A stretch of 64,000 nt of DNA. Source: an uncultured Aquimarina sp. (GTDB lineage Bacteria > Bacteroidota > Bacteroidia > Flavobacteriales > Flavobacteriaceae). Of the stretch, positions 30,108-46,522 are shown in pieces (the stretch's first letter is position 1; every line of letters begins with the position of its first letter). The position numbers and the translations under genes were made by a program. The stretch lies in NCBI GenBank assembly GCA_947498765.1, contig CANMLG010000059.1, forward strand, positions 1 through 64,000, read 5' to 3'. The notes beneath the pieces are model-generated. The model saw only the letters and a list, made by a program, of their open reading frames with translations, was not told the origin of the DNA and ran no database searches.

Positions 30108-32708
30108 TTAATTCGCTATCACTAATCGCTTGGTCAATCCGTTACCAATACTAATAAAATACACACCATTTGCATAGCCTTCTAGATTGATGCGTTCCGT
30201 AGTATTTTCTATAATTTGAACTAATAGTTTTTGACCCAGTAAATTTGTTAGCACAATTTCACTTCCCTCTTTAGCACCAATAAGTTCAACATATGTTTGA
30301 GCTGGGTTTGGAGCCATTATTACTTTTAAAGTCACCTCATCATCTAAAGTTTTTTGACCTGTTACTTTAACTAACTCAAACTTCTGATTATTATTAGCAG
30401 TATTCAAATCCCACAACTGAACATTTCCATCAACACTACCTTTTTCAATATCCAATGCTAAATTTGTACATTTTTGAGGACGTATCGAGTAAAAATCTCC
30501 AACCTTTACTATTTGCCATGAACTACTTGTTCCTCTAGCATTAATAGTACTACTTACATTAACTCCATTTGTACAATTACCTACAACTGTCAAATAACGC
30601 TTGTTTCCTTTATTCTGAATACTATATAAGTTAGTACCTATAGATTTTATCTCCCATAATTGATCATCCCATTTACCATAATCATGCGTAATTGCACTAA
30701 AATTCTCATTTGATCTAGCCAAAATTCGCTGTCCCGTTTTTGGAAACTTGATACTATACGTTCCACTTAAATTTGGAGCTGATTTACCCGAAACCTTAAC
30801 AGTTATTTTTGCTTCTGCCGTATTTCCTTTTTTATCAGTCGCCACCGCCTTAAGCTCATACGTACCTTGCTTCATATTTTTCAATACACCATCATTTCCT
30901 CCCCATTCGTATGGCAAAATATTTTCTTGACGTACAAACTTATTATTCAAATATAATTTTACATTTTGAATACCATCATTATCTGTTGCCTGAACATCTA
31001 CATTTAAAGTGGCACCTTCTTTTAAATTCAAATTAGTAGGCTTTAAAAAACTTAATCTAGGTTTATTATTTACAACTATTGGCGTTGGTTTAGGTGCAGG
31101 TGCATTTTTAGGCGCTATATTTAAAGTAGTAATTATCTCGCCTGTAGTTCCATTTCTATCTGTAGCAACAGCCTTAAGTTCATATGAACCTGGTTTCATA
31201 TTTTTCAATGCTTGTTCTCTAAATCCAAATCTATAAGGCGCCGATCCCTGTTGTCCTATAAAACTATTATTTAAATAAAGCTTTACATTTTGAATACCGT
31301 TAGCATCATTTGCAGCAACCTCTACAATTACATTAGCCCCCTCAACTAAATTAAACAAGGTAGGCTTTAAAAAACTTACTTTAGGCACATCATTATTTGT
31401 TGGCTTTGGCGATGGCTGTACAACTGGCTTAGCAGGCTCAGGTTTTGGTTTTGGAGCACCCCCAGTAACTGTTCCTTGGTTACTAGTTGTAGCAACCACT
31501 TTATTTGAACTCGATTCTGTTAATTCGCCAATAAAAGTATACTTCCCTTTAGCTAAGGTTTTCCCTAAGTTAAGTGTTTTTCTATTTTTCCCTAAACCTT
31601 CTAAAACTTTAAATCCTGAATTGAATACTTCTTTATTATTGGCATCTAATATTCTTAACCTAAAATTTCTATCCGTTTTAGCAGAATACAAATACGAAAC
31701 TTCAACTTTCTTATTTCCATCAACTAATTTTGTATTTTGAAAAAATGAAATTTTATCTTGAAATATCTGAGCTGCATTATATTTTGTAGTTTTTGGTGCC
31801 TTATCGACTGGAACTAACTCGTAGGCACGAATCCAATCGTAGTATGATGTATTGATGTTATTATTTCTTAATTGCGCTGGAGATGGGTGAGGTTTTGCCC
31901 AATCATAAGTTTCTGTTACCATATTAATACGCATTGGATCTGGAAATGGTTTATCAACTACCTCAGTACTAACTTTTACATCACCTACATACTTATTGTC
32001 TGCATAAAAAGATACTTCATTTTCATTTCTCCAGTAAGCACCATAAGTATGAAAATCTTGCCATGATTCACTGCTTAATTTTGCATTATTTTTTCCATTT
32101 CCTTCAATAGAATTATTTCCACGAGAAAAGAATTTCTCTCTACCTCCATTACAATCCACGTAACGGTAGTGTGTATTAAAGTTCATGTTATTTCTAAATG
32201 AGCTTGTTCCATTAAAAACTCCTCCAATACTTTCTGCAATATCTAATTCTTGACTAAAACTATCCCTTGAACAATTATTCCCATTACTTTTCTTGGTAGG
32301 AAAATTAACTGATCTTTTAGGATTAGACAACCAAAATGTAGTTGACATTGCTACTCTTGAAGATTTGAAACGACACTCATAATATCCAAAAAACGCAGTA
32401 GTCTCTTTAGATTGTACAGCTCCACCATCAATTGTATATCCATCTCCTGGATCAGTAGATACTTGATTTTTGATCTGCATGGTACCATTCTTTACAGATA
32501 TGGTTTTAGGTTCAAACTTTGCAGGTCTTCTACCCTTCCATCCTTTGAATGTTTTATTCCACTTAGAAGCATCTAATTTATTCCCGTTGAATTCATCTGA
32601 ATATTGTTTGTTAAGCACCCATCGGTATCCAATTTTAGGTTCCGGAGGACCTGCAAGAATAATTTGAGATAAAAATAAGCATACCAAAAAGGGTAAAAGC
32701 GTTTTCAT
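30108..32708 (-). CDS. secreted GH16 polysaccharidase with Ig, ricin-type lectin and T9SS sorting domains
   Basis: 866 residues. Signal peptide 1-19. The GH16 catalytic domain (about 25-305) has the ELDIAE motif: Glu154 should be the nucleophile and Glu159 the acid/base. Segments such as YSDEFNGNKLDASKW and MSTTFWLSN resemble agarase/porphyranase-type GH16 enzymes of marine Flavobacteriia. After a beta-rich linker come two similar Ig-like domains (about 440-535 and 548-640, each with GIQNVKLYLNN), a ricin-type beta-trefoil (about 648-790), and a type A T9SS sorting domain (about 793-866, PNPAQTYVEL to KRLVIAN). It probably degrades an algal beta-galactan or beta-glucan outside the cell; the substrate is not settled. 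A TATATTTG minus-7 box is at 32733-32740. No SusC/SusD pair is nearby. Confidence 0.92.
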   Translation of the reverse strand: MKTLLPFLVCLFLSQIILAGPPEPKIGYRWVLNKQYSDEFNGNKLDASKWNKTFKGWKGRRPAKFEPKTISVKNGTMQIKNQVSTDPGDGYTIDGGAVQSKETTAFFGYYECRFKSSRVAMSTTFWLSNPKRSVNFPTKKSNGNNCSRDSFSQELDIAESIGGVFNGTSSFRNNMNFNTHYRYVDCNGGREKFFSRGNNSIEGNGKNNAKLSSESWQDFHTYGAYWRNENEVSFYADNKYVGDVKVSTEVVDKPFPDPMRINMVTETYDWAKPHPSPAQLRNNNINTSYYDWIRAYELVPVDKAPKTTKYNAAQIFQDKISFFQNTKLVDGNKKVEVSYLYSAKTDRNFRLRILDANNKEVFNSGFKVLEGLGKNRKTLNLGKTLAKGKYTFIGELTESSSNKVVATTSNQGTVTGGAPKPKPEPAKPVVQPSPKPTNNDVPKVSFLKPTLFNLVEGANVIVEVAANDANGIQNVKLYLNNSFIGQQGSAPYRFGFREQALKNMKPGSYELKAVATDRNGTTGEIITTLNIAPKNAPAPKPTPIVVNNKPRLSFLKPTNLNLKEGATLNVDVQATDNDGIQNVKLYLNNKFVRQENILPYEWGGNDGVLKNMKQGTYELKAVATDKKGNTAEAKITVKVSGKSAPNLSGTYSIKFPKTGQRILARSNENFSAITHDYGKWDDQLWEIKSIGTNLYSIQNKGNKRYLTVVGNCTNGVNVSSTINARGTSSSWQIVKVGDFYSIRPQKCTNLALDIEKGSVDGNVQLWDLNTANNNQKFELVKVTGQKTLDDEVTLKVIMAPNPAQTYVELIGAKEGSEIVLTNLLGQKLLVQIIENTTERINLEGYANGVYFISIGNGLTKRLVIAN

Positions 32709-34245: not shown

Positions 34246-36699
34246 TTAAAACTTAAATTGTAACACTGCATAAAAGTTTCTTGGAGCCGATGGAATAATA
34301 CCTGGTCCGGGATAACCTGTTGCCCTACGGGTAAAATATGATTCATCTAGCAAATTATTTACACCTGCTTCTAAGGTCCAATTTTTATACGTATACTCTG
34401 CAGAAAAATCCATGATAGTATAAGCAGGAATTTCGCCAGTTACCCCTGCTGCTGCAACCGAAATTGGTGTATTATTCGAATCAGTAAATTGAGTAGAAAT
34501 ATACGTATACTGGAAACTTGATTTAAAGTTTTTATACCCTAACTCAACCCCTGTTTTTAAATTAACCTTTGGTACAAATTGTAATTCATTCCCTTTTCTT
34601 AATCCATTATTTTGAAATTCTTCAGGTAGAAAAATATCTGTAAATTCTGAATCTGTATAGGCGAAATTTAAAAAATGTTGCCAATGAAAACCAGTATTCT
34701 CAGTAAATAACCAATTTGAAAAATTAGCAGTTATCAATGATTCTATACCCAAAATACGTGCTGCTCCTACATTAGAACGTAGTACTCTAAAGGATTGATT
34801 TCCTCGGGCTACATCAATTCTATTATCATAAAATAGAGAAAAACCACTCACATCGTATCGTATAATATCATCTATAACTCCACGTACTCCCAAATCAAAT
34901 GTATAACCCGTTTCATCTTGAATATTGGGATCAATAATAAAGTTAGGACTTTCAATTTGAATATCACTAAACGTTACCGAACGGTAATTTTGAGAAAAAT
35001 TAGCAAAAGCCTCAAAAGATTTTGATGGCTCATAACTTAGCCCCAAACCAAGTAAAAACAGATTTCTTTCTAAAGATTTTGATTCTTCAGTAACGGTTCT
35101 TGTGATTGTATTTTGGTCCACTCTTGTTCCTTCTACAAAAGTTCCATCACTCTCCGTTTTTATGTATTCAAATCGAAAACCAGGAGTTACAGAAAAGTCA
35201 TTAGTTAACTTAAAAATATGTTCTCCAAATAGGGCTACATTTAAGTTTGGAAGATCGAAATCAGATTGTATCAATTCAGAATTAGATGACTCTTCATTAT
35301 TAAAAGAAAAATCTACTGCGGCACCTGCATTCCCTATCCCTTGTTGTGATCTATTATCGGACTGATAATACTTAGCTCCAAATAATGAGATATTCCTTAT
35401 TCCAAAAAGGTGATAATTACTTAATACTCTAAATTCGGCTCCAAAATTATTAAATTCGTCAATAATAAGCTCCCTAGGTATGTCGGGAGAATCTGGTGTA
35501 CTTGGACGTCCTCCTTCTCTAAAACCTAATGCATTTCGTTGTGCATCTAATCGAAAAACATTTAAACTCCCTTTCGTATTTTCTGAAAATTGATGCTCTA
35601 ATTTTAAATTCAACAACACCCAATCAACAGCAAAAAAATTACGCTCCCTATTACTAAAGTTTGGATTTTCTTCAAATTGCTTATCTGTTAAACCACCTGC
35701 TTGTTGCGCCAAATAAGTAAGGTAGGTACTTTCCAAAGTTAACTTCGTATTCTCGGTAAATTGATACCCTACATTTGCATAAAAATTTTGAGAATCAAAA
35801 CCCGAATTAGGTCGAAAACCATCTCCATCTTTATATTGGAAATAGGTATAATAACTAACCTTATCAACGGTTCCACTTAAACTATTAAAGGAATTAAACA
35901 ATCCAAAAGAACCTATTCCTTGTCTGGATATTATTTCTATTTCCTTAACTCGATTAGGCTCTTTTAATTTAAAATTAACCAAGCCCCCAAATTGAGTTCC
36001 ATATTGCAAAGATGCTGCGCCACGTATTACTTGAATTTCTTCCAAGGCTTCCAAAGGAGGTGTGTAATAACTTTCGGGATAGCCTAGCACATCTGCACTA
36101 ATATCATAGCCATTTTGACGTGTATTAAAATTTGCAGAACGATTTGGGTCTAAACCACGACCACCTATATTTAATTGTAAGCCGGCATCTTCTGTTTCAT
36201 AAATATTCAAACCCGCTACCTGAGCATAAGCCTGTCTAGGATTACCCGAAGCTTTATTACCCACTTGCTGCTCTATTAAAACAACTTCCGTTTTTTTACC
36301 CGCATAAATAGCTGTTCCCTCAACATCTTTAAGCTTTTTAATTCCAAAAACTTTTTGACGTTGTTGATTAATCACTACCTCATTAAGGTTTTCACCTAAT
36401 GTTTGTAATTCAATAATCAAATTTGTTTTCTCAATAGGATTGATTTTATATTCTAAAATTTCATATCCATAATTAATAAAAACTAATGTTTGTTCTGTAG
36501 GTTCCAGTGACATCAGAAACTTACCTGCTGTGTCAGTACGTATTGTTTTTACCAAAGCTTTACTATACACTTCTGTATTAGGAAGTGGTTTTTGTGTATT
36601 TCCATCCATAACCACTCCTGTTACTACAACTTGTGCTTGCACGATTTGTACAAAAAACCACACTAATACTACTAATTTAAATCCCTTTAATTGTTCCAT
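34246..36699 (-). CDS. TonB-dependent outer-membrane receptor (FecA-like), last gene of the iron-linked cluster
   Basis: 817 residues. Signal peptide 1-22 (ending VQAQ), a carboxypeptidase-regulatory-like beta domain (about 25-105), a plug domain (about 120-240, with IQVIRGAASLQYGTQFGG) and a 22-strand-type barrel ending in aromatic YAVLQFKF. Features such as IGGRGLDPNRSANFNTRQNGYDI and the barrel's FecA-like motifs suggest import of a ferric chelate. The start is ATG 36699, which overlaps the carboxylase-like gene by 23 bp, implying translational coupling. An earlier TTG/ATG extension lacks a proper signal peptide. Confidence 0.92.
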   Translation of the reverse strand: MEQLKGFKLVVLVWFFVQIVQAQVVVTGVVMDGNTQKPLPNTEVYSKALVKTIRTDTAGKFLMSLEPTEQTLVFINYGYEILEYKINPIEKTNLIIELQTLGENLNEVVINQQRQKVFGIKKLKDVEGTAIYAGKKTEVVLIEQQVGNKASGNPRQAYAQVAGLNIYETEDAGLQLNIGGRGLDPNRSANFNTRQNGYDISADVLGYPESYYTPPLEALEEIQVIRGAASLQYGTQFGGLVNFKLKEPNRVKEIEIISRQGIGSFGLFNSFNSLSGTVDKVSYYTYFQYKDGDGFRPNSGFDSQNFYANVGYQFTENTKLTLESTYLTYLAQQAGGLTDKQFEENPNFSNRERNFFAVDWVLLNLKLEHQFSENTKGSLNVFRLDAQRNALGFREGGRPSTPDSPDIPRELIIDEFNNFGAEFRVLSNYHLFGIRNISLFGAKYYQSDNRSQQGIGNAGAAVDFSFNNEESSNSELIQSDFDLPNLNVALFGEHIFKLTNDFSVTPGFRFEYIKTESDGTFVEGTRVDQNTITRTVTEESKSLERNLFLLGLGLSYEPSKSFEAFANFSQNYRSVTFSDIQIESPNFIIDPNIQDETGYTFDLGVRGVIDDIIRYDVSGFSLFYDNRIDVARGNQSFRVLRSNVGAARILGIESLITANFSNWLFTENTGFHWQHFLNFAYTDSEFTDIFLPEEFQNNGLRKGNELQFVPKVNLKTGVELGYKNFKSSFQYTYISTQFTDSNNTPISVAAAGVTGEIPAYTIMDFSAEYTYKNWTLEAGVNNLLDESYFTRRATGYPGPGIIPSAPRNFYAVLQFKF

Positions 36700-38044
36700 C
36701 GAATGGCAATATCCATTTTTTATGAGCAAATGATTCTTTTTCATTTGCAAGATTAATAGTTGGGTCGATAAAAGCCTTGCTTAAACGACCATTTAATGTA
36801 ACATAACATTTCACATATACCTGTGGCTTAGCTATGCCCTCTTTTACATAATGATCTCGTAACATATGAGCATACTCCAATATAAAATCGGGCTGTGTAC
36901 TCATTTGCTTGATTTGAACTGTAGTTAAAAAATCATTATTTCTAATTTCAAATTCTCTCCCAGTATCAGGGTCTATAATAGTAAAAGTGGCTATCCCTAC
37001 TTTTTCAACAAGCATAACGCGCCACGAAAAACGATAGCCTTCTTCGGTCCAAAACAACTCACCTGGATAGCTTAAATAACGCCACGGCAAAAGTAATTGA
37101 ATCGCAAAAAACACTATTAAAATTCCTTGAACTAATTTTAAGTTATTTTGAACATATACAGATCCATTATTCTTGTTCTGTTTCGCGTATTTTTTAACGC
37201 CTAATCCTACTATTCCTTTACGGAAAAGTCTTATTATTTTTTCATGAAATTCTGCATTAAAAAATACCAACGTGCATGCAATCATTATATATGGAAACAT
37301 TCCAATAGGAAATAACATCCTTGTTAACACATGAAATGCAATCACTACAAAATAAGCATATACTCTAGTAGATTTTTTTACTAAAAAAAAGACTATAAAA
37401 ACATCATACAGCATTCCAAACCAACTAAAAAAATAATGCACCCAACTATAATGTAGTATACCTCCAATAACAGGAAAATCACTACGAGTTCGTAACCATA
37501 TTTTTAAAGGTTGAGCATGAAGTAACCAATCCGAATTTATTTTTGACAAGCCAGCATATATGTATACAATAGCCAACACCAATTTTAAAGCATCAACACA
37601 CCATTTTGGAATACGCGCTACTTGTAACTTTTTATTTTTTAAAGCATCAATAGAATAATATACATGTGCAGGTAAAAAAATAAGCAAAAAGCTTAAAATA
37701 CTAACAAAGTAATAATGGTTTAAATAAGTAGTTTTATCAATAAGTTCGATATACGTAAAACTTAAAAAAAATACGATTATACTTATTCGATACCTAAAAC
37801 CAAGTGCCACAAAAAGTGCTGACAATGCACAAATTGCAAACAACAAATACGTCCAATTCCCTAAAGGTTTTACAAACTCGAAACCATAATATGAAAAGTA
37901 AAATTTTGGCTCAATATATAACTGCTCAATCCAGCCTTTACTCCAAAATCGAATTATACTGGCACACATGAGTATGCCAAACAAAATACGAAAGACAGCA
38001 ATAGGTGCTGCCTTTGTGGTTTTATGTAAGTAATCGGCAAACAT
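36677..38044 (-). CDS. homologue of vitamin K-dependent gamma-glutamyl carboxylase (HTTM family)
   Basis: 455 residues with a multi-pass N-terminal half (about 15-270) and a soluble C-terminal half. Recalled human GGCX motifs have clear counterparts: DKTTYLNH (residues 103-110), YIYAGLSKINSDW (161-173), LFPIGMFPYIMIA, and the lumenal-type tail segments GYRFSWRVML and DPDTGREFEIRN. His110 and Lys168 align with human His160 and catalytic Lys218, with the same 58-residue spacing. It should therefore use a reduced naphthoquinone, CO2 and O2; menaquinone is native to these bacteria. Whether it carboxylates protein glutamates is unknown; a Leptospira relative was reported to epoxidise without carboxylating. 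It lies 7 nt after imelysin-1 and overlaps the TonB receptor. Confidence 0.88.
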   Translation of the reverse strand: MFADYLHKTTKAAPIAVFRILFGILMCASIIRFWSKGWIEQLYIEPKFYFSYYGFEFVKPLGNWTYLLFAICALSALFVALGFRYRISIIVFFLSFTYIELIDKTTYLNHYYFVSILSFLLIFLPAHVYYSIDALKNKKLQVARIPKWCVDALKLVLAIVYIYAGLSKINSDWLLHAQPLKIWLRTRSDFPVIGGILHYSWVHYFFSWFGMLYDVFIVFFLVKKSTRVYAYFVVIAFHVLTRMLFPIGMFPYIMIACTLVFFNAEFHEKIIRLFRKGIVGLGVKKYAKQNKNNGSVYVQNNLKLVQGILIVFFAIQLLLPWRYLSYPGELFWTEEGYRFSWRVMLVEKVGIATFTIIDPDTGREFEIRNNDFLTTVQIKQMSTQPDFILEYAHMLRDHYVKEGIAKPQVYVKCYVTLNGRLSKAFIDPTINLANEKESFAHKKWILPFDGTIKGI

Positions 38045-38051
38045 AGATCAA

Positions 38052-39128
38052 TTAATCGCCATCGTTATCTACAATAGTAATAGGAATTTCCAACACAGAT
38101 ACCACATCTGCTTTAAACAATATTACCAAATCTTGTAACGCATCTCGGGCAGCTAGCATTAATGTATTATCTGTTTCTACTTGTTGCGCCAAGTTTTCAT
38201 TAAGTGCGTTAAGCGCTATTTCGGCTTCAATAAATTCTAATTTTATACGGGCATCTAATCCTTCTTCACCTAAATTAACCAGTATTTTTGACCAACTAGA
38301 AGTACTATTTTCTGTCCCTAAATAAAATATTCTAGCACTATTAAATGCTTCTAAGAGCAACCTCTGAGATTCTTCTGGTTTAAATACAGACTCTACAGCC
38401 ATAGAATTAGGAATTCCACTAAATTTTCCTGCTGGAAAATCTATTTTAGATGAGCGCAATCTTTTTTCAAAGTATTCCACATAACTGTTGTAAATCAAAT
38501 CAGCAAATTCCGCATCATTTTTTACTGTATTGGCAAAATTAACCTCCCAGTCAGTTACTACTTGTTGAGTTAAATTTGCAATTCGATCTATTACTTTATC
38601 TAAAAAACCTTGATAATTATCGCCTTCATCTCCAATATAAAAAGCTAAAATCTCACTATCTGATGTGCCTAGTCCATTTAACAAATAATCCACAGCAGGA
38701 AAACCTTGACTTGCTTGAAATTCTATTCTTTCTAGATTAATACTTTCCGGTGAGGGGATGATATTTTCAACTTTACCAATATCCAATGGATGTGAGTTCA
38801 CATTCAAATAAAAACGAATGTCATTGGCTACACCAAAATCGTATTTACCTGCCGCTTGAAAAGTAGTATATGCTTGTAAATAAGCCTCACGTAAACTAAC
38901 TAAGTTTACCTCAGTAGTATTTGTTAGAAAAGTATCTTTGGCCGCAACTAATTTGGATAAATCTTTATTAAATGTATCATATTCTGGTAAAATATGAGTA
39001 TCAACAATATTTTCCAGTAATGGAATAGCATCAAAAACATTATTTTCACTAGGCTTCAGTTCATCATCACAACTCAATACTAACAAAGCACTAAATGCTA
39101 TTATTAAAACTCCTACTTTTTTTACCAT
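38052..39128 (-). CDS. imelysin-like lipoprotein 1 (degenerate GxHxxE site)
   Basis: 358 residues. Lipobox LLVLSC with Cys20 followed by DDE, fitting surface-exposed Bacteroidota lipoproteins. The helical body matches the imelysin/IrpA family (COG3489-like): helical pairs around REAYLQAYTTFQ and the segment GFPAVDYLL (142-150), where the family's metal motif GxHxxE has Pro144 for His and Asp147 for Glu. It should therefore not bind metal by the usual site. It ends in DNDGD, as does imelysin-2. A TATTTTTG minus-7 box lies at 39148-39155, so it may begin an imelysin-carboxylase-TonB transcript, with read-through from DUF4856 also possible. Confidence 0.88.
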   Translation of the reverse strand: MVKKVGVLIIAFSALLVLSCDDELKPSENNVFDAIPLLENIVDTHILPEYDTFNKDLSKLVAAKDTFLTNTTEVNLVSLREAYLQAYTTFQAAGKYDFGVANDIRFYLNVNSHPLDIGKVENIIPSPESINLERIEFQASQGFPAVDYLLNGLGTSDSEILAFYIGDEGDNYQGFLDKVIDRIANLTQQVVTDWEVNFANTVKNDAEFADLIYNSYVEYFEKRLRSSKIDFPAGKFSGIPNSMAVESVFKPEESQRLLLEAFNSARIFYLGTENSTSSWSKILVNLGEEGLDARIKLEFIEAEIALNALNENLAQQVETDNTLMLAARDALQDLVILFKADVVSVLEIPITIVDNDGD

Positions 39129-39224: not shown

Positions 39225-40469
39225 TTACTTTTTTATAGCACCAGTATCCTGAGCCTGCTCCACTGTAAAATTAAATTTAGCGGCTATTTCCTCAGCCATA
39301 TTGTCTGCAATTTCAAGCTTATCTGCTACATCCCAAAAACCATCACCTTCAGTTAATTTCGCTAAAAATGCATCTACAGCAGTTTTTGAAAAATAAGGTT
39401 TACCAGTATCGGGATCTTGAGTAAAACGTAATGAATATATAAACCCGTATCCTTCAGACCAATCATGAAATGCTGTTCCATCATTAACTGCACCTAAGCC
39501 AAAATCTCTTATTTTATCAGCCCCTTGCTTTAAGTAAAATACGGCACGTATACCGATAACCTCTGATAAGGCCAAACGAATAATATCTGCTTGTTTTTCT
39601 GATTCCTCATATTTACCTGCTGTTATAGCCGCTCTACCCGTTTTAAAAGCTTGAAAAATACGATCTGCTATACCTTCAAAATCTTTATCCCCTTCAACAC
39701 GTTGTACATATTTATATAAAAAGTCATCTACAACAGTTTCTATATGTTTTGAATTAGGATCACTCAATGCATCAACATCAGATGCTCCATATAAATATCC
39801 ATAAGCTTCATCCCAAAAATGTTCTGCTTCAGTATATGTTTTTCCTTCATTTAAAGTTCCTGCATCATTCGCTTCTCTAATTGCAGCTCCTTCAGTTAAA
39901 CTTAAATAATCATTGATAATTTGATCTAAAGTTAAGGCTCCTATTAAGCCTTTATTAAAAGCTTGATTTAATTCTAATCCTTTTTCATTTACAAAACGAC
40001 CTTCTAGCCTCCCTACCGTACCTCTGGTTGCTACTGGCACCTCATCAGCACTAGCGTATTTAGATAAAAGTATAGATACTTGTTCCGCTATATATCCATC
40101 AAAAACACCTCTAATTTCAGCTTGTTCTACTGAATTTGTTTTAAAGTAATCTACAGATTCAGCTACTTTGCTTCTAATATTTTTTGTATCATTTAATGCA
40201 GTATCGGCAAAACCTTGTCCTGTGCTAAACTTGTCATCAATAACAGTTTCGGTGGTTCCAAAAGTTTTAAAATCCTTTAAAATTTCAGAACCTTGATTTA
40301 AACGTGTCGTTTGCCCACCAAAACTTACGGTACTTTCTCCGTTTCTAGTAAACTCATATGTCAAAGGAACGTCTAATGCATTATCTGGAGTTACATCACT
40401 ATCATCAGAACTACAAGCTACAAAAGCTGTAGCAACTACTCCAAATTTTAATATATTGACTAATTTCAT
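39225..40469 (-). CDS. DUF4856 lipoprotein
   Basis: 414 residues with a lipobox (TAFVAC, Cys19, followed by SSDDSD), so an outer-membrane lipoprotein probably facing outward. The mature part matches DUF4856: LTYEFTRNGESTVSFGGQT near the start, a long helical middle with EAEHFWDEAYGYLYGA, and GTAFHDWSEGYGFIYSLRF toward the end. The function is unknown, but the family regularly accompanies imelysins. It is preceded by a consensus promoter overlapped by TTAGAA half-sites (40509-40562), suggesting iron control. Confidence 0.9.
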   Translation of the reverse strand: MKLVNILKFGVVATAFVACSSDDSDVTPDNALDVPLTYEFTRNGESTVSFGGQTTRLNQGSEILKDFKTFGTTETVIDDKFSTGQGFADTALNDTKNIRSKVAESVDYFKTNSVEQAEIRGVFDGYIAEQVSILLSKYASADEVPVATRGTVGRLEGRFVNEKGLELNQAFNKGLIGALTLDQIINDYLSLTEGAAIREANDAGTLNEGKTYTEAEHFWDEAYGYLYGASDVDALSDPNSKHIETVVDDFLYKYVQRVEGDKDFEGIADRIFQAFKTGRAAITAGKYEESEKQADIIRLALSEVIGIRAVFYLKQGADKIRDFGLGAVNDGTAFHDWSEGYGFIYSLRFTQDPDTGKPYFSKTAVDAFLAKLTEGDGFWDVADKLEIADNMAEEIAAKFNFTVEQAQDTGAIKK

Positions 40470-40508: not shown

Positions 40509-40562
40509 CAAATATATTATCCATATCCATTCTAAACAAATCTTATATTAAATTATTCTAAA
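40509..40562 (-). promoter_or_regulatory. DUF4856 promoter with Fur-like half-sites
   Basis: Minus-7 TATATTTG (40509-40516), 20-nt spacer, minus-33 TTG (40537-40539). A GTTTAGAAT half-site (about 40529-40538) overlaps the minus-33 region, and TTTAGAATAATTTAA follows upstream (about 40548-40562). The half-sites are related to the perfect palindrome upstream of imelysin-3. Confidence 0.55.
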
Positions 40563-40689
40563 TAAAATTAAACTAATTTGTATTTGATAAAAAAACAAAA
40601 CTTAAAGTATTAATTATTTATTTTTAAACACAAAAAACCAGCAAATATTCAATATTTTACTGATTCCTTTACCGTATTTAAAATAAGCT

Positions 40690-40791
40690 TTAGTGTTCCT
40701 TAAATTTCTCTGTCCATAAAATCAATGTTTCTTTTTCTTTTTCAGATAAATCGCCATGTGTTGATTGACATACTTAAAAGGGCTTTCATTA
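40690..40791 (-). pseudogene. 3' fragment duplicate of the haem-binding protein gene
   Basis: The region 40632-40791 repeats 41698-41857 in direct orientation at roughly 85% identity by eye. In frame it still reads STHGDLSEKEKETLILW-TEKFKEH and the stop, the same C-terminus as the haem-binding gene at 41757-42200. It has no start or CxxCH. It is a relic left beside the inserted lipoprotein gene. Just beyond, 40825-40841 is a perfect palindrome (GTATGATC A GATCATAC). The rest of the 404-bp gap is the DUF4856 promoter and AT-rich spacer. Confidence 0.8.
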
Positions 40792-40873: not shown

Positions 40874-41431
40874 TTATGGCGTTTCAGATAATGTAGAACG
40901 TTCATAGGAAAAACCACCACTATTTCCTTGTTTTCCTCCTCTTGACCAACTTAAAAACTTTATATCAATATAAATATCTTCATCTATAAGATGGAGTATC
41001 AAGTCTTGATCAATAATTTCAAAAGGTCTTACCGTTCTCCTCAAAGATTGAAAGTCTAAAGTACTCAAATCAGAAGAAGCAATTGAACCTTTTGCCCACT
41101 CCGTCCCAAAAGGACTTTTATTAGTTGCGGCATCAGTTTCTATTTTAGCATTGTATAATTCCCCTCCACTATTTGCACGAGTTAACCATATAGTTTCTGT
41201 GATACGATCTTGATTTTCCTCCAACATAGGGTCGGCTCCAATTTCTTTTGTAAATATAATTTTAGAACCATTCCAAATGATAGGTGTTTTAGTATCTACA
41301 GGTTTTGAAATAGGAGAAGGCTTCATTTCTTCATTTTTAACAGTATCAGTTATGGAATCATCAGAAGAACATCCTTGTATTCCTAAAGAAAAGATTAGTA
41401 TTAATAACTTAAATAGTTGTGAAAATTTCAT
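40874..41431 (-). CDS. lipoprotein of unknown function, flanked by direct repeats
   Basis: 185 residues. Lipobox LGIQGC with Cys21 followed by SSDDS, so an outer-membrane and probably surface lipoprotein. The mature region contains IIWNGSKIIFTKEIGADP, ETIWLTRANSGGELYNA and a C-terminal SWSRGGKQGNSGGFSYERST. The last part recurs in various secreted proteins of bacteria, but I cannot name the family. It is bracketed by two copies of the 3' end of the haem-binding gene, so it seems to have entered the cluster by a duplication or insertion and may not belong to the core system. Confidence 0.75.
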   Translation of the reverse strand: MKFSQLFKLLILIFSLGIQGCSSDDSITDTVKNEEMKPSPISKPVDTKTPIIWNGSKIIFTKEIGADPMLEENQDRITETIWLTRANSGGELYNAKIETDAATNKSPFGTEWAKGSIASSDLSTLDFQSLRRTVRPFEIIDQDLILHLIDEDIYIDIKFLSWSRGGKQGNSGGFSYERSTLSETP

Positions 41432-41690: not shown

Positions 41691-41756
41691 CTAAACATAA
41701 AAACCAGTAAAAACTTAACATTTTTACTGGCTCCTTTATCGTATTTAAAATAAGCT

Positions 41757-42200
41757 TTAGTGTTCCTTAAATTTCTCTGTCCACAAAATCAATGTTTCTT
41801 TTTCTTTTTCAGATAAATCACCATGTGTTAATCGATATATTTTTAATGGCATTTCACCTTCTTCTACCTCTTCATACACTTCAGCCAGTTTGTGTAATTG
41901 TCGTGCTTCTGGATAGGTCTGCCATTCCGAAAAATTTAAATGTTCCTTCCCCTCTTCAATATGATGATCCAATAATAAATTAACAGCCCCAATGGAAGCA
42001 TACCAAGGGTATTTGGTATGGTTGCTATGACAATCATAACAAGATGATCTAAAAATTGTTTTTACCTCCTCTGGAACATTAAAGGATTTTTCGAATGATG
42101 CCACACTTTCATAAGAAGACACATTATCTTTTTTTACAAAAAACTGAAGTACTACTAATGCTAGTACAATAAGGCTAAGTATTATTTTTTTTATGTTCAT
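41757..42200 (-). CDS. haem-binding domain (Haem_bd) c-type protein
   Basis: 147 residues: an N-terminal membrane anchor (about 3-22) and one covalent haem site CYDCH (Cys54, Cys57, His58) in the context SSCYDCHSNHTKYPWYASIGA, characteristic of the Haem_bd family. Periplasmic, probably electron transfer or haem handling with the di-haem oxidoreductase upstream. Start ATG 42200; a TTG three codons earlier is not used. A minus-7-like TAACTTTG lies at 42223-42230. Its last third is duplicated downstream at 40690-40791. Confidence 0.92.
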   Translation of the reverse strand: MNIKKIILSLIVLALVVLQFFVKKDNVSSYESVASFEKSFNVPEEVKTIFRSSCYDCHSNHTKYPWYASIGAVNLLLDHHIEEGKEHLNFSEWQTYPEARQLHKLAEVYEEVEEGEMPLKIYRLTHGDLSEKEKETLILWTEKFKEH

Positions 42201-42259: not shown

Positions 42260-43405
42260 TTAATCCCCATCATTATCATTTAATGTTATGGTAAACCCAA
42301 GCGCACTAGCCATATCCACTTCTAACAATCTTTTTAGTATTACAAAACTATCCTTAAGCTCTAAAACAGCCGATTTATTACGTACTAACTCTTTAGCTAA
42401 TGAACCCTCAATAGCGTTTAATTTGGTCCTACAATCGGCAAATGCTTTTTCAAAAGAATTCACTAAATCTTGCCTTTCATTCAGTATTAAAAAATTTGAA
42501 AAACCAACATTTTCTTCCAAAATACCATTAAAATTACCTATAAATAATTCCTCCATAGCTGTCACATGCGATTGTATAATCTCTTTTGAAAACTCTGCAT
42601 AAGGAGATTCCACCTCATTTGCTGCTATTTCCCCTCCATCTTTATTACCTAAAGGAACGCCTAATTTTTCTAAAATAATATCCTCAGTAAGCGTAATCAT
42701 CGCATTGATCAATCGATTTTGACTTCCGTTTATTCCTGTTTCTGTGACCATTATAAATCGCGCTTTATATTGCTCCCATGCCTCCTTATAGCGCTCCACA
42801 TTAGTCTTCAAATTCTCACTTACTGCTACTAAATAAGCTACATTACGTATTCCGCTTTCGCTAGAAGTAAAGCGCTCTATGTCACTAAGACTACTTGTTT
42901 CAAAAAAAAGTAGATATTCTAACGCCGAAATTCCTTTTTGCGATGATCCCTTTGAATTTACAAAAGCTTCATTAATCACTTCATCATCAGAAATAGTTGC
43001 TTCAATTTTTACCACATCTGTTGGCCAACGATTTAACTCAAAAGAGATAAATGTTTGTGCCACTGGACCTATATCGTATAACTCTAATGCTTTCCATGTA
43101 AATTGCAAATCTTTCCAAGCCTTTTGTAAATCATTCAAATTATTGGCATTCTGAATATTTTGAAACAACTTGGCTTTTAAAACCATCCCCTCAGTTTTAG
43201 CAACTAATTCCGATAGTAAAATTGATATTTCATTTTGATAGACTTGCTCAAATTGTCTTTGTTTTAAAGCTTCAACACCTATATTCGTATCATTCAATTC
43301 TATGTCAGATATATCTTTCTGATCATCATTGCTACTACAAGCAAAAGCCATAGTAATAATTAAAGCCACTATTACTTTTAATATATTATGCGTTATTTTC
43401 ACCAT
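42260..43405 (-). CDS. imelysin-like lipoprotein 2 (degenerate GxHxxE site)
   Basis: 381 residues with a lipobox (TMAFAC, Cys23, followed by SSNDD). Imelysin/IrpA-type helical body, with paired segments WKDLQFTWKALELY and FISFELNRWPTD. At the family's metal motif it has GISALEYLL: Gly158, Ser160 in place of His, Glu163 kept. It ends in DNDGD like imelysin-1. It starts 9 nt after the di-haem oxidoreductase stop, so the pair is co-transcribed, as in the proteobacterial COG3488-COG3489 arrangement. Confidence 0.88.
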   Translation of the reverse strand: MVKITHNILKVIVALIITMAFACSSNDDQKDISDIELNDTNIGVEALKQRQFEQVYQNEISILLSELVAKTEGMVLKAKLFQNIQNANNLNDLQKAWKDLQFTWKALELYDIGPVAQTFISFELNRWPTDVVKIEATISDDEVINEAFVNSKGSSQKGISALEYLLFFETSSLSDIERFTSSESGIRNVAYLVAVSENLKTNVERYKEAWEQYKARFIMVTETGINGSQNRLINAMITLTEDIILEKLGVPLGNKDGGEIAANEVESPYAEFSKEIIQSHVTAMEELFIGNFNGILEENVGFSNFLILNERQDLVNSFEKAFADCRTKLNAIEGSLAKELVRNKSAVLELKDSFVILKRLLEVDMASALGFTITLNDNDGD

Positions 43406-45102: not shown

Positions 45103-46341
45103 TTATTCTTCTAAGTCTGCTATTACTCCAGATAAGCCCAAAGCAGTGGCTCCTTCTACTAATTTATCTCCTAAATTTTGCAATTCTATTGCTGCAACTC
45201 TCACCGCAGGTCTAACAGAATCATCTGATATGGCAAAATCAAAAGGTATTGCTGTGGCTTCAACTGCTGCTTCTGCCTTGGCTAGTTGTGCCGAAATTTC
45301 TGCTCCTAAAGTGGCATTTGTTTCTGCTATCAAATCTTCAATTGATTTCCCGCTTACCGTAGTATACTCACCTCGGTACACATTGGCTACCCCTGCCAAA
45401 TTTAAACGCAAGTCACGATGTGTGTTATCACTAAAACAAGAATGCTCATCTTCTTGATCTCTATTATCAAAGGATACAAATACACGTTCGCCTGCTAATT
45501 CTCCTTTTGCTAGTTTAGAAATACCTGTAAGCATATTTTTCAATGCTACGTCTTCGTCTAATTCCAAAAATGTTTTTCTGTAAGGTCCATTAGCATTCCA
45601 TTCACCTATTAAAGATTGTAAATTATCCAATAAAATTTTTGAGCATACGCTTAAATAAGCTCTCCTTCTATCTTGATTTTCCGCAGTTCCGCCGTCAACA
45701 AAATCTGTATATGGCCTTTTTCCAGCTTCCTTTTCTGTTGGATTTGTGTTATCCTGACCCCACAATAAAAATTCGATAGCATGATAACCTACACTAATAT
45801 TTTTTTCAGCCACATCTTGATCTCCATTGGCGGTATTACCTCCTTCATTTTGATCTAATAAAAGCTGTTTAGTTATTGTTGGAAAAGCGGTTGGATTGTT
45901 AATGATTCCAGAATCTTCTTTCCCCTCAACATAATCAATATAATTCTCATCCAAAGGCCATGCATTTAACAAACCCTCTGGTCCATCTTCATCATCAATA
46001 GGACCATCGGCAAACCTAAATGCTTCTGTTTGCCCGTAAGGTTCTCTAGCCTCTAACCAAGCTTTTTTTGTGGCTTCAAAATTGGTTTCAGTTGGTTCTC
46101 CTACAAATGCTTCTATTTTTTCATCTAAAAGCTTAGCTGTATCAAATGCATCTTGATAATTTTTTAATACCAGATTTGCATAATTTTCTATTACCGCTGT
46201 TTTAGTTACAGATTCTATTTCAATTACACCCCCTTCTTTTGGATCATTTTTAGCATTATTATTTGAATCGTCATCTGAACATGATATAATAGCTACACCC
46301 ATTGCTAGCATACCTATTAAACTAATTTTTGTCAACTTCAT
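45103..46341 (-). CDS. imelysin (IrpA/COG3487-like) lipoprotein 3, canonical site
   Basis: 412 residues with lipobox VAIISC (Cys21, then SDDDS). The family metal motif GxHxxE is intact as GYHAIE (Gly185, His187, Glu190), and the typical FADGPIDDEDGPEGLLNAWPLDENYIDYV (quoted here in parts: FADGPIDDEDGPEG, NAWPLDE, YIDYV) and YRGEYTT segments are present, matching the IrpA-type imelysin. This family is iron-regulated in several bacteria and the motif is proposed to bind metal; peptidase activity is disputed. It is the first gene of the minus-strand cluster, controlled by a divergent Fur-like promoter region. Confidence 0.93.
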   Translation of the reverse strand: MKLTKISLIGMLAMGVAIISCSDDDSNNNAKNDPKEGGVIEIESVTKTAVIENYANLVLKNYQDAFDTAKLLDEKIEAFVGEPTETNFEATKKAWLEAREPYGQTEAFRFADGPIDDEDGPEGLLNAWPLDENYIDYVEGKEDSGIINNPTAFPTITKQLLLDQNEGGNTANGDQDVAEKNISVGYHAIEFLLWGQDNTNPTEKEAGKRPYTDFVDGGTAENQDRRRAYLSVCSKILLDNLQSLIGEWNANGPYRKTFLELDEDVALKNMLTGISKLAKGELAGERVFVSFDNRDQEDEHSCFSDNTHRDLRLNLAGVANVYRGEYTTVSGKSIEDLIAETNATLGAEISAQLAKAEAAVEATAIPFDFAISDDSVRPAVRVAAIELQNLGDKLVEGATALGLSGVIADLEE

Positions 46342-46382: not shown

Positions 46383-46510
46383 CAAATATATACCTCAAAT
46401 TCAAATAACAAAAATTATTTCTAATTATTCTAAATAAAAATAATAAACAAAATTCTTTTATTTAGAATAATTCTAACATATATTTGAATTGTTATTTGGA
46501 ATAATTCTAA
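46383..46510. promoter_or_regulatory. divergent promoter region with three Fur-like 7-1-7 boxes
   Basis: Minus-strand promoter for imelysin-3: TTG (46409-46411), 18 nt, TATATTTG (46383-46390). Plus-strand minus-7 TATATTTG at 46479-46486 for the DUF6686 gene. Boxes: TTAGAAT A ATTCTAA, a perfect 7-1-7 palindrome (46462-46476), directly upstream of the plus-strand minus-7; TTGGAAT A ATTCTAA (46496-46510), just after the predicted start; and TTCTAAT T ATTCTAA (46419-46433), adjacent to the minus-33 of the imelysin promoter. The architecture is that of Fur boxes, so iron repression is likely. Fur itself is not in the window. Confidence 0.65.
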
Positions 46511-46522
46511 ACAAAAAAAAGA

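Follow-up and report, generated by a model that had tools for sequence, protein, structure and literature searches.

Human GGCX performs a chemistry that requires a hydroquinone, O2, CO2 and an acidic side chain. Bacterial relatives of this enzyme, members of the vitamin K-dependent gamma-carboxylase (VKGC) family, have been known for about twenty years and, to our knowledge, none has an established substrate; one from Leptospira reportedly epoxidises without detectable carboxylation. A glutamyl carboxylase homologue of L. interrogans, likewise a bacterial GGCX relative, is mentioned in excerpts of PMC4555120. Imelysins, for their part, are described in excerpts of other reports as parts of iron-linked gene sets: the iron-responsive lruB-di-haem oxidoreductase (DHOR)-imelysin operon of Leptospira (PMC13066512; see also PMC7567364 and PMC8638851), and imelysin/EfeB-type systems (PA4370-PA4372 of P. 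aeruginosa, and EfeUOB), with two imelysins, a di-haem peroxidase and Fur control (PMC3143127). Both the VKGC family and imelysin operons with di-haem peroxidase and Fur control are known. Here, we describe a gene in which the two meet, at 36677-38044 on the minus strand of a 64,000-nt stretch of DNA from an uncultured Aquimarina sp. (the window). By sequence and predicted model, and leaving activity aside, it encodes a GGCX-family enzyme in a role undescribed in the open-licence literature searched. We propose that this inner-membrane enzyme would serve a Fur-repressed iron-uptake system by a menaquinol- and O2-driven modification of a protein of its operon, likely the imelysin, a reading that we hold tentatively and rate a little short of probable.

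The window resembles the described systems in different respects. It shares two imelysins, a di-haem peroxidase and, putatively, Fur control with PA4370-PA4372/EfeUOB, but the words carboxylase and DUF4856 are absent from the main text of PMC3143127. In Riemerella anatipestifer, four genes are listed as Fur-regulated under iron restriction: RAYM_09779 for a TonB-dependent receptor, 09784 for a vitamin K-dependent gamma-carboxylase, 09789 for an imelysin and 09794 for a hypothetical protein; as in the window, receptor, gamma-carboxylase and imelysin lie on neighbouring locus tags, but the excerpts of PMC5609570 give them as a table row only, with neither mechanism nor wider survey. Beyond that table, no connection between the enzyme and imelysin was found in the open-licence literature, as far as its excerpts extend, and no study of a bacterial enzyme of the window's class (class A, below) was among the matches listed there. 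In the sources, such proteins are named HTTM domain-containing protein and, once, vitamin K-dependent gamma-carboxylase.

A sequence-only reading of the window had identified the gene as a GGCX homologue, and its open reading frame (ORF) stands as then given: 36677-38044, minus strand, ATG start, 455 residues. The HTTM domain (PF05090, residues 8-265) and the VKGC lumenal domain (PF22777, residues 303-449) scored 270.1 and 193.6 bits, both above the cut-off of 27.7, with E-values of 2.7e-80 and 2.3e-57. Human GGCX was matched with an E-value of 2.6e-47 at 28.7% identity. This likeness to the GGCX/VKGC family is far beyond chance. The four motifs singled out by the earlier reading, DKTTYLNH, AGLSKINSDW, FPIGMFPY and GYRFSW, match DKTSWNNH, AGVKKLDADW, FSIGMFSY and LYGYSW of GGCX, and the 58-residue spacing that it had noted holds for both H110-K168 and H160-K218, the alignment being gap-free between H110 and K168. 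Neither residue is displaced from the GGCX active site in the alignment, and a fold comparison, giving ranges only, agrees: the predicted model has the fold of GGCX in both its membrane domain and its first lumenal lobe and matches residues 50-508 of human GGCX (e.g. PDB 9wfc, 9l6q).

To compare active sites, we aligned 120 bacterial sequences from ORFs over 400 residues (98 A1, nine A2, nine class B, two orphan and two other sequences; classes are defined below) with residues 54-505 of human GGCX and with the window protein using MAFFT, on which all assignments of changed positions rest. Residue roles follow excerpts of PMC12589487, in which Lys218 is the base, N159, H160 and Y395 contact the Glu side chain, and K217 connects the second propeptide lobe with the membrane domain. 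In the window protein, Lys168 (codon 37541-37543, minus strand, as are the codons that follow) corresponds to Lys218, the base deprotonating vitamin K hydroquinone; His110 (37715-37717) to His160 of the Glu and vitamin K pocket; and Asn109 (37718-37720) and Tyr337 (37034-37036) to the Glu-coordinating Asn159 and Tyr395. Seven core residues (N159, H160, K218, W223, F286, F294 and F299, GGCX numbering) show no variation across the A1, A2 and B sequences, including 107/107 of A1 and A2, and a single orphan, L141, departs from them among the 120. The head pocket for vitamin K (V210, W223, F286, F294, F299, M401) is retained at five of six positions; M401 is replaced by V343, as it is by V in 98/98 A1 and 9/9 A2 sequences, and the tail tunnel varies in parts. 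Trp399 and Met402 are also shared with GGCX.

The acceptor side is less uniform. The metazoan-type Glu pocket (N158, N159, H160, Y395, R436) is incomplete in the window protein: the side-chain contacts N159, H160 and Y395 are kept, and the backbone contacts N158 and R436 are replaced by Leu108 and Gln380. Within A1, the N158 position is L in 98/98 sequences, the R436 position Q in 97/98 and the Y395 position Y in 80/98 and F in 18/98. Lys217 is Ser167 in the window protein (Ala in 95/98 and Ser in 3/98 of A1), and F50 and M394 stand in place of the Cys99-Cys450 pair. Because the substitutions fall outside the seven core residues, the aligned sequences indicate strict conservation of the base and of the aromatic quinone pocket, and a partial change on the acceptor side. 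A strong base of the vitamin K type might accordingly be put to a reaction other than Glu carboxylation, such as carboxylation or oxidation of Asp, modification of a siderophore or lipid, or preparation of an imelysin residue. The mostly invariant menaquinol contacts, the variable Glu contacts (Y395, R436 and N158 positions) and the epoxidation reported for the Leptospira relative suit this alternative, but two of the three GGCX contacts to the Glu side chain, N159 and H160, are invariant (98/98 A1, 9/9 A2), and we consider it doubtful.

The classes derive from a sample of 199 genomes belonging to the same family as the window, here taken as Flavobacteriaceae because its nearest named relatives are Aquimarina; 154 of them contain the VKGC lumenal domain. 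Identity to the window protein splits this sample. A1 comprises matches of at least 54% (64 genomes); G014 stands by itself at 49% (492 bits); A2 comprises eight genomes at 43-49% (373-401 bits); and class B lies at or below 39% among the matches listed. The A1 set was first drawn up from lumenal-domain scores plus G012, which was added with its neighbour known; identity ranking gives the identical set. In a tree of 52 rows, with A1 represented by 28 of its 98 sequences, a branch supported at 99/95 sets off A1, A2 and the orphans, which together make up class A; A2 and B are supported at 100/99 and 100/100, respectively, and GGCX sits on a long branch of unsure placement. The second VKGC of the window genome (G000:C59:87737-88507, locus L094; 35% identity to the window protein) belongs to class B. 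All nine class B proteins (L094, L095-L097, L099-L102 and L150) have intact core residues, in which they resemble class A, but they differ in carrying His at 395, Met at 401 and Asn at 290 and in their neighbourhood, with ribF nearby in 9/9 loci examined and serS in 7/9. Both PF05090 and PF22777 were found in the one class B protein scanned (L100).

In the window, the gene is preceded by imel1, an imelysin-family lipoprotein gene (38052-39128, minus strand; C-terminus ...VDNDGD), and by a gene for a DUF4856 lipoprotein (39225-40469, minus strand), the first of the run, and is followed by a TonB-dependent receptor gene (34246-36699, minus strand). The gap of 7 nt after the imelysin stop is as claimed previously. 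The claimed 23-bp overlap with the receptor is right if the receptor starts at ATG 36699; the ORF was listed from the TTG at 36750. In 105/108 class A loci, an imelysin gene is found on the same strand no more than 400 nt upstream. This count pools several locus sets, with L150 dropped as class B and with L098, the short loci L111-L140 and the copy in the window left aside; the loci are mutually related, with species possibly doubled, and are not independent draws. Two main arrangements occur, DUF4856-imelysin-VKGC-TonB receptor and imelysin-DHOR-imelysin-VKGC. The receptor is directly downstream in 96/105 imelysin-linked loci (cut by the contig end in one, L163), and in the other 9/105, eight family-sample genomes and a Persicobacter plasmid, an imelysin-DHOR-imelysin run lies upstream instead; one locus of this second type, L148, also bears a 32-bit TonB label. 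A search of plasmids gave four relatives, of which three were examined. The short contig L163 (1-3565) links the two arrangements, since it carries a DHOR end, an imelysin, a VKGC and a TonB receptor start in one run.

These data contradict the view that a housekeeping VKGC happens to stand beside iron genes. The proximity of class B to ribF (9/9) and serS (7/9) and the intact active site of orphan L160 away from iron genes would be in keeping with such chance, but class A forms a well supported branch (99/95) and its imelysin linkage (105/108) extends over several families of the phylum, so that coincidence is hardly credible. Among the 80 closest loci, which are biased to near relatives and include many Aquimarina, imelysin is beside the VKGC in 79, the receptor in 79 and DUF4856 in 78. 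DUF4856 occurs in 67 of the 199 family-sample genomes, namely all 64 with A1 and three without, and lies within 5 kb of A1 in 63/64, the remaining pair being split by contig ends. In a sample of 395 genomes of the phylum, class-A VKGC, here meaning at least 43% identity (four of them in split matches) as opposed to individual placement on the tree, is present in 72, DUF4856 in 58 and both in 53. Fifteen of the 19 VKGC-only genomes were examined: 14 have an adjoining imelysin (in part for L169) and 14 a receptor, the fifteenth, L160, having neither. Ten ORFs at the DUF4856 place of VKGC-only loci matched the DUF4856 profile weakly (E 3e-12 to 4e-4, those ten searched alone); of two compared with Pfam, one stayed below the 22.3-bit cut-off with 20.2 bits and the other matched nothing. 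With this gene order found phylum-wide, the imelysin-VKGC-receptor set therefore seems to be of old standing in the phylum, as a DUF4856-like fourth member probably is.

To investigate iron control, we searched for the 19-bp Fur box predicted for R. anatipestifer (excerpts of PMC5609570), allowing up to three mismatches. The window contains seven matches against 0.37 expected: three sites before imel3, each matching on both strands (46417-46435, 46460-46478 and 46494-46512), and one before DUF4856 (40545-40563), strand being unassigned for all four. They occur in the window only ahead of its two gene runs. A looser Fur-like pattern, found 33 times against 26.0 expected, was not above chance. 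In relatives, we surveyed the 350 nt before each gene wherever the locus extended 300 nt or more upstream, the shuffle control being a simple two-base block shuffle. Sites were found before DUF4856 in 74/92 and before imel3 in 11/15, as compared with other ORFs (17/564), imel1 (6/97), the haem-binding gene (4/29), the receptor (2/109), VKGC (1/109), DHOR (0/15) and imel2 (0/15). Because the sites cluster before DUF4856 and imel3, the pattern fits two putatively Fur-controlled runs: DUF4856-imel1-VKGC-receptor, and a run of minus-strand genes for the LruB-like imelysin imel3 (45103-46341), the di-haem oxidoreductase DHOR (PF06537, 43415-44827), the imelysin-family lipoprotein imel2 (42260-43405; C-terminus ...NDNDGD) and a haem-binding domain protein (PF14376, 41757-42209). 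The iron link proposed from the sequence alone is thus borne out by gene order across the phylum, by Fur-box-like sites and by the published Fur regulon, whose RAYM_09784 protein would, judged from its neighbours, belong to class A.

With respect to the cofactor, menaquinone is probably native, as had been supposed, because menA is present in the same genome (284.7 bits, over the cut-off). VKOR gave one match in that genome, within a 533-residue frame (39.7 bits; cut-off 27.5). As a recycler of the cofactor, VKOR was set aside: it shows no association with A1 (10/64 vs 22/135, odds ratio 0.95), and 54 of the 64 A1 genomes have no match. For a modification of low turnover, a cell that produces menaquinone itself might manage without recycling the epoxide. 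The enzyme might instead act as an epoxidase only and have no protein substrate, serving as a menaquinol/O2 redox valve, for example to keep iron reduced or to clear oxygen from around the di-haem peroxidase. The base, the nearly complete quinone pocket and the presence of DHOR and a haem-binding protein among the window neighbours are consistent with such a valve. By contrast, the tight coupling to imelysin (105/108), the lack of a VKOR match in most A1 genomes and the rarity of DHOR, which is directly upstream in only 10/105 imelysin-linked loci (nine A2 loci and L163) and within reach in 6/80 of the nearest, make it improbable.

We therefore return to modification of an operon protein. The iron-uptake system would comprise the TonB receptor and the imelysin and DUF4856 lipoproteins, repressed by Fur. 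By homology, Lys168 would deprotonate menaquinol, and menaquinol and O2 would yield menaquinone epoxide and a strong base beside His110 and Asn109. The active site should face the periplasm, by analogy with the lumen of the endoplasmic reticulum. The imelysins, the DUF4856 protein and DHOR should cross the periplasm because the first 40 residues of each, inspected by eye, contain a lipoprotein-type signal with an early Cys. During this crossing, the base would take a proton from a side chain of an operon protein, for which imelysin is the first candidate because it is the most constant neighbour. Addition of CO2 would then give gamma-carboxyglutamate (Gla) or a related carboxylated residue, which might help to bind or pass on iron. 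Gamma-carboxylation by the window enzyme is plausible. The fuller proposition, that Bacteroidota starved of iron use Fur-controlled, menaquinol-dependent carboxylation of imelysin or partner lipoproteins, yielding Gla or carboxylated Asp, to hold iron for the TonB receptor, strikes us as rather unlikely in that complete form.

We searched the candidate substrates for Glu columns kept with the enzyme and lost without it, using three family-sample loci, L105-L107, that retain DUF4856, imelysin and receptor in the absence of a class-A enzyme. Neither the imelysin (two conserved columns at ≥90%) nor the receptor (nine at ≥95%, from 94 rows limited to receptors scoring above 500 bits) yielded such a signature across these loci. 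DUF4856 has four conserved Glu columns, all present in L105-L107; some are lost in L108 and L164-L168, and divergence alone can explain the losses in these six enzyme-free copies. No cluster resembling that of a Gla domain stood out, the highest content being 11 Glu per 40 residues in the haem-binding protein and nine in imel2. A C-terminal D-G-D is found in 97/99 imel1 proteins (the others being L048 and L109, the latter interrupted by a contig end), 16/16 imel2 and 0/15 LruB-like imel3. It was rejected as a recognition tail for the enzyme, since it also occurs in L105-L107 and in Psychrobacter IPPA (3pf0), which shares it with imel1 and imel2 of the window; it looks like the mark of an imelysin subfamily.

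Several results weigh against the proposed modification. L105-L107 keep every conserved Glu tested in imelysin, DUF4856 and receptor, the comparison resting on three enzyme-free loci, and because such loci exist the DUF4856-imelysin-receptor system can run without the enzyme. Five phylum genomes with DUF4856 alone (L164-L168) have neither imelysin nor class-A VKGC by profiles, and a TonB receptor is beside DUF4856 in two of them. Class A itself includes exceptions: L078 has no imelysin and no receptor, and the orphans L141 and L160 lie outside such clusters. In the model comparison, no counterpart was seen of GGCX beyond about residue 508, that is, of the second propeptide lobe (PBD-2) and the Arch domain. 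To these are added the partly changed Glu pocket (N158, R436 and Y395 positions), the quinone contact altered from M401 to V and the scarcity of VKOR in A1 genomes.

The enzyme-free loci also bear on the alternatives. In L105, the enzyme is absent; in L106, a 93-residue ORF lies in between and a class B copy is found elsewhere in the genome. In L107, a fatty-acid-hydroxylase family protein (PF04116, 5752-6699) occupies the VKGC place between imelysin and TonB receptor. It may be a different oxygen-dependent membrane enzyme with the same task, and the replacement favours a reaction other than Glu carboxylation. That the enzyme is dispensable in some genomes would also suit a scaffold or chaperone, its fold retained to help assemble the receptor or a lipoprotein at the membrane, with catalysis secondary, but with seven core residues invariant in 107/107 and departures in one orphan of 120 bacterial sequences, this is very improbable. 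That orphan, at 8678-10045 of L141, has N159S, H160S and F286S with the lysine kept, and L160 has kept the core. The substitutions hint that the active site is under selection inside the imelysin cluster, one of the two orphans sampled fitting this pattern. The gene upstream of the L141 orphan encodes an outer-membrane barrel protein.

If the proposed carboxylation is correct, vitamin K-dependent carboxylation would be an old bacterial chemistry of metal acquisition, as opposed to an animal invention, and vitamin K-dependent modification would gain a role in bacterial iron uptake. Should the reaction prove to be a different one, the strong base of vitamin K would gain a new use. In either case, gene order reduces the substrates to be searched to a few proteins of a single iron-linked, phylum-wide operon, and natural controls are at hand in the enzyme-free genomes with neighbours kept and in the orphan with lost active-site residues.

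Some further features of the window were noted. For the DUF4856 protein (39225-40469), structure prediction was confident and gave a mostly helical model, which nothing in the PDB clearly matched. A small lipoprotein-like protein with no Pfam match is encoded at 40874-41431 (minus strand) between two copies of a 162-nt direct repeat (40625-40786 and 41692-41853; 85% identical), which takes in a copied 3' end of the haem-binding gene. Among the 80 closest loci, the small gene was found in L004 only, and it is probably a recent insertion. Finally, the protein encoded at 30108-32708 combines a GH16 domain, Ig-like repeats, a ricin-type lectin domain and a C-terminal secretion-system sorting domain.

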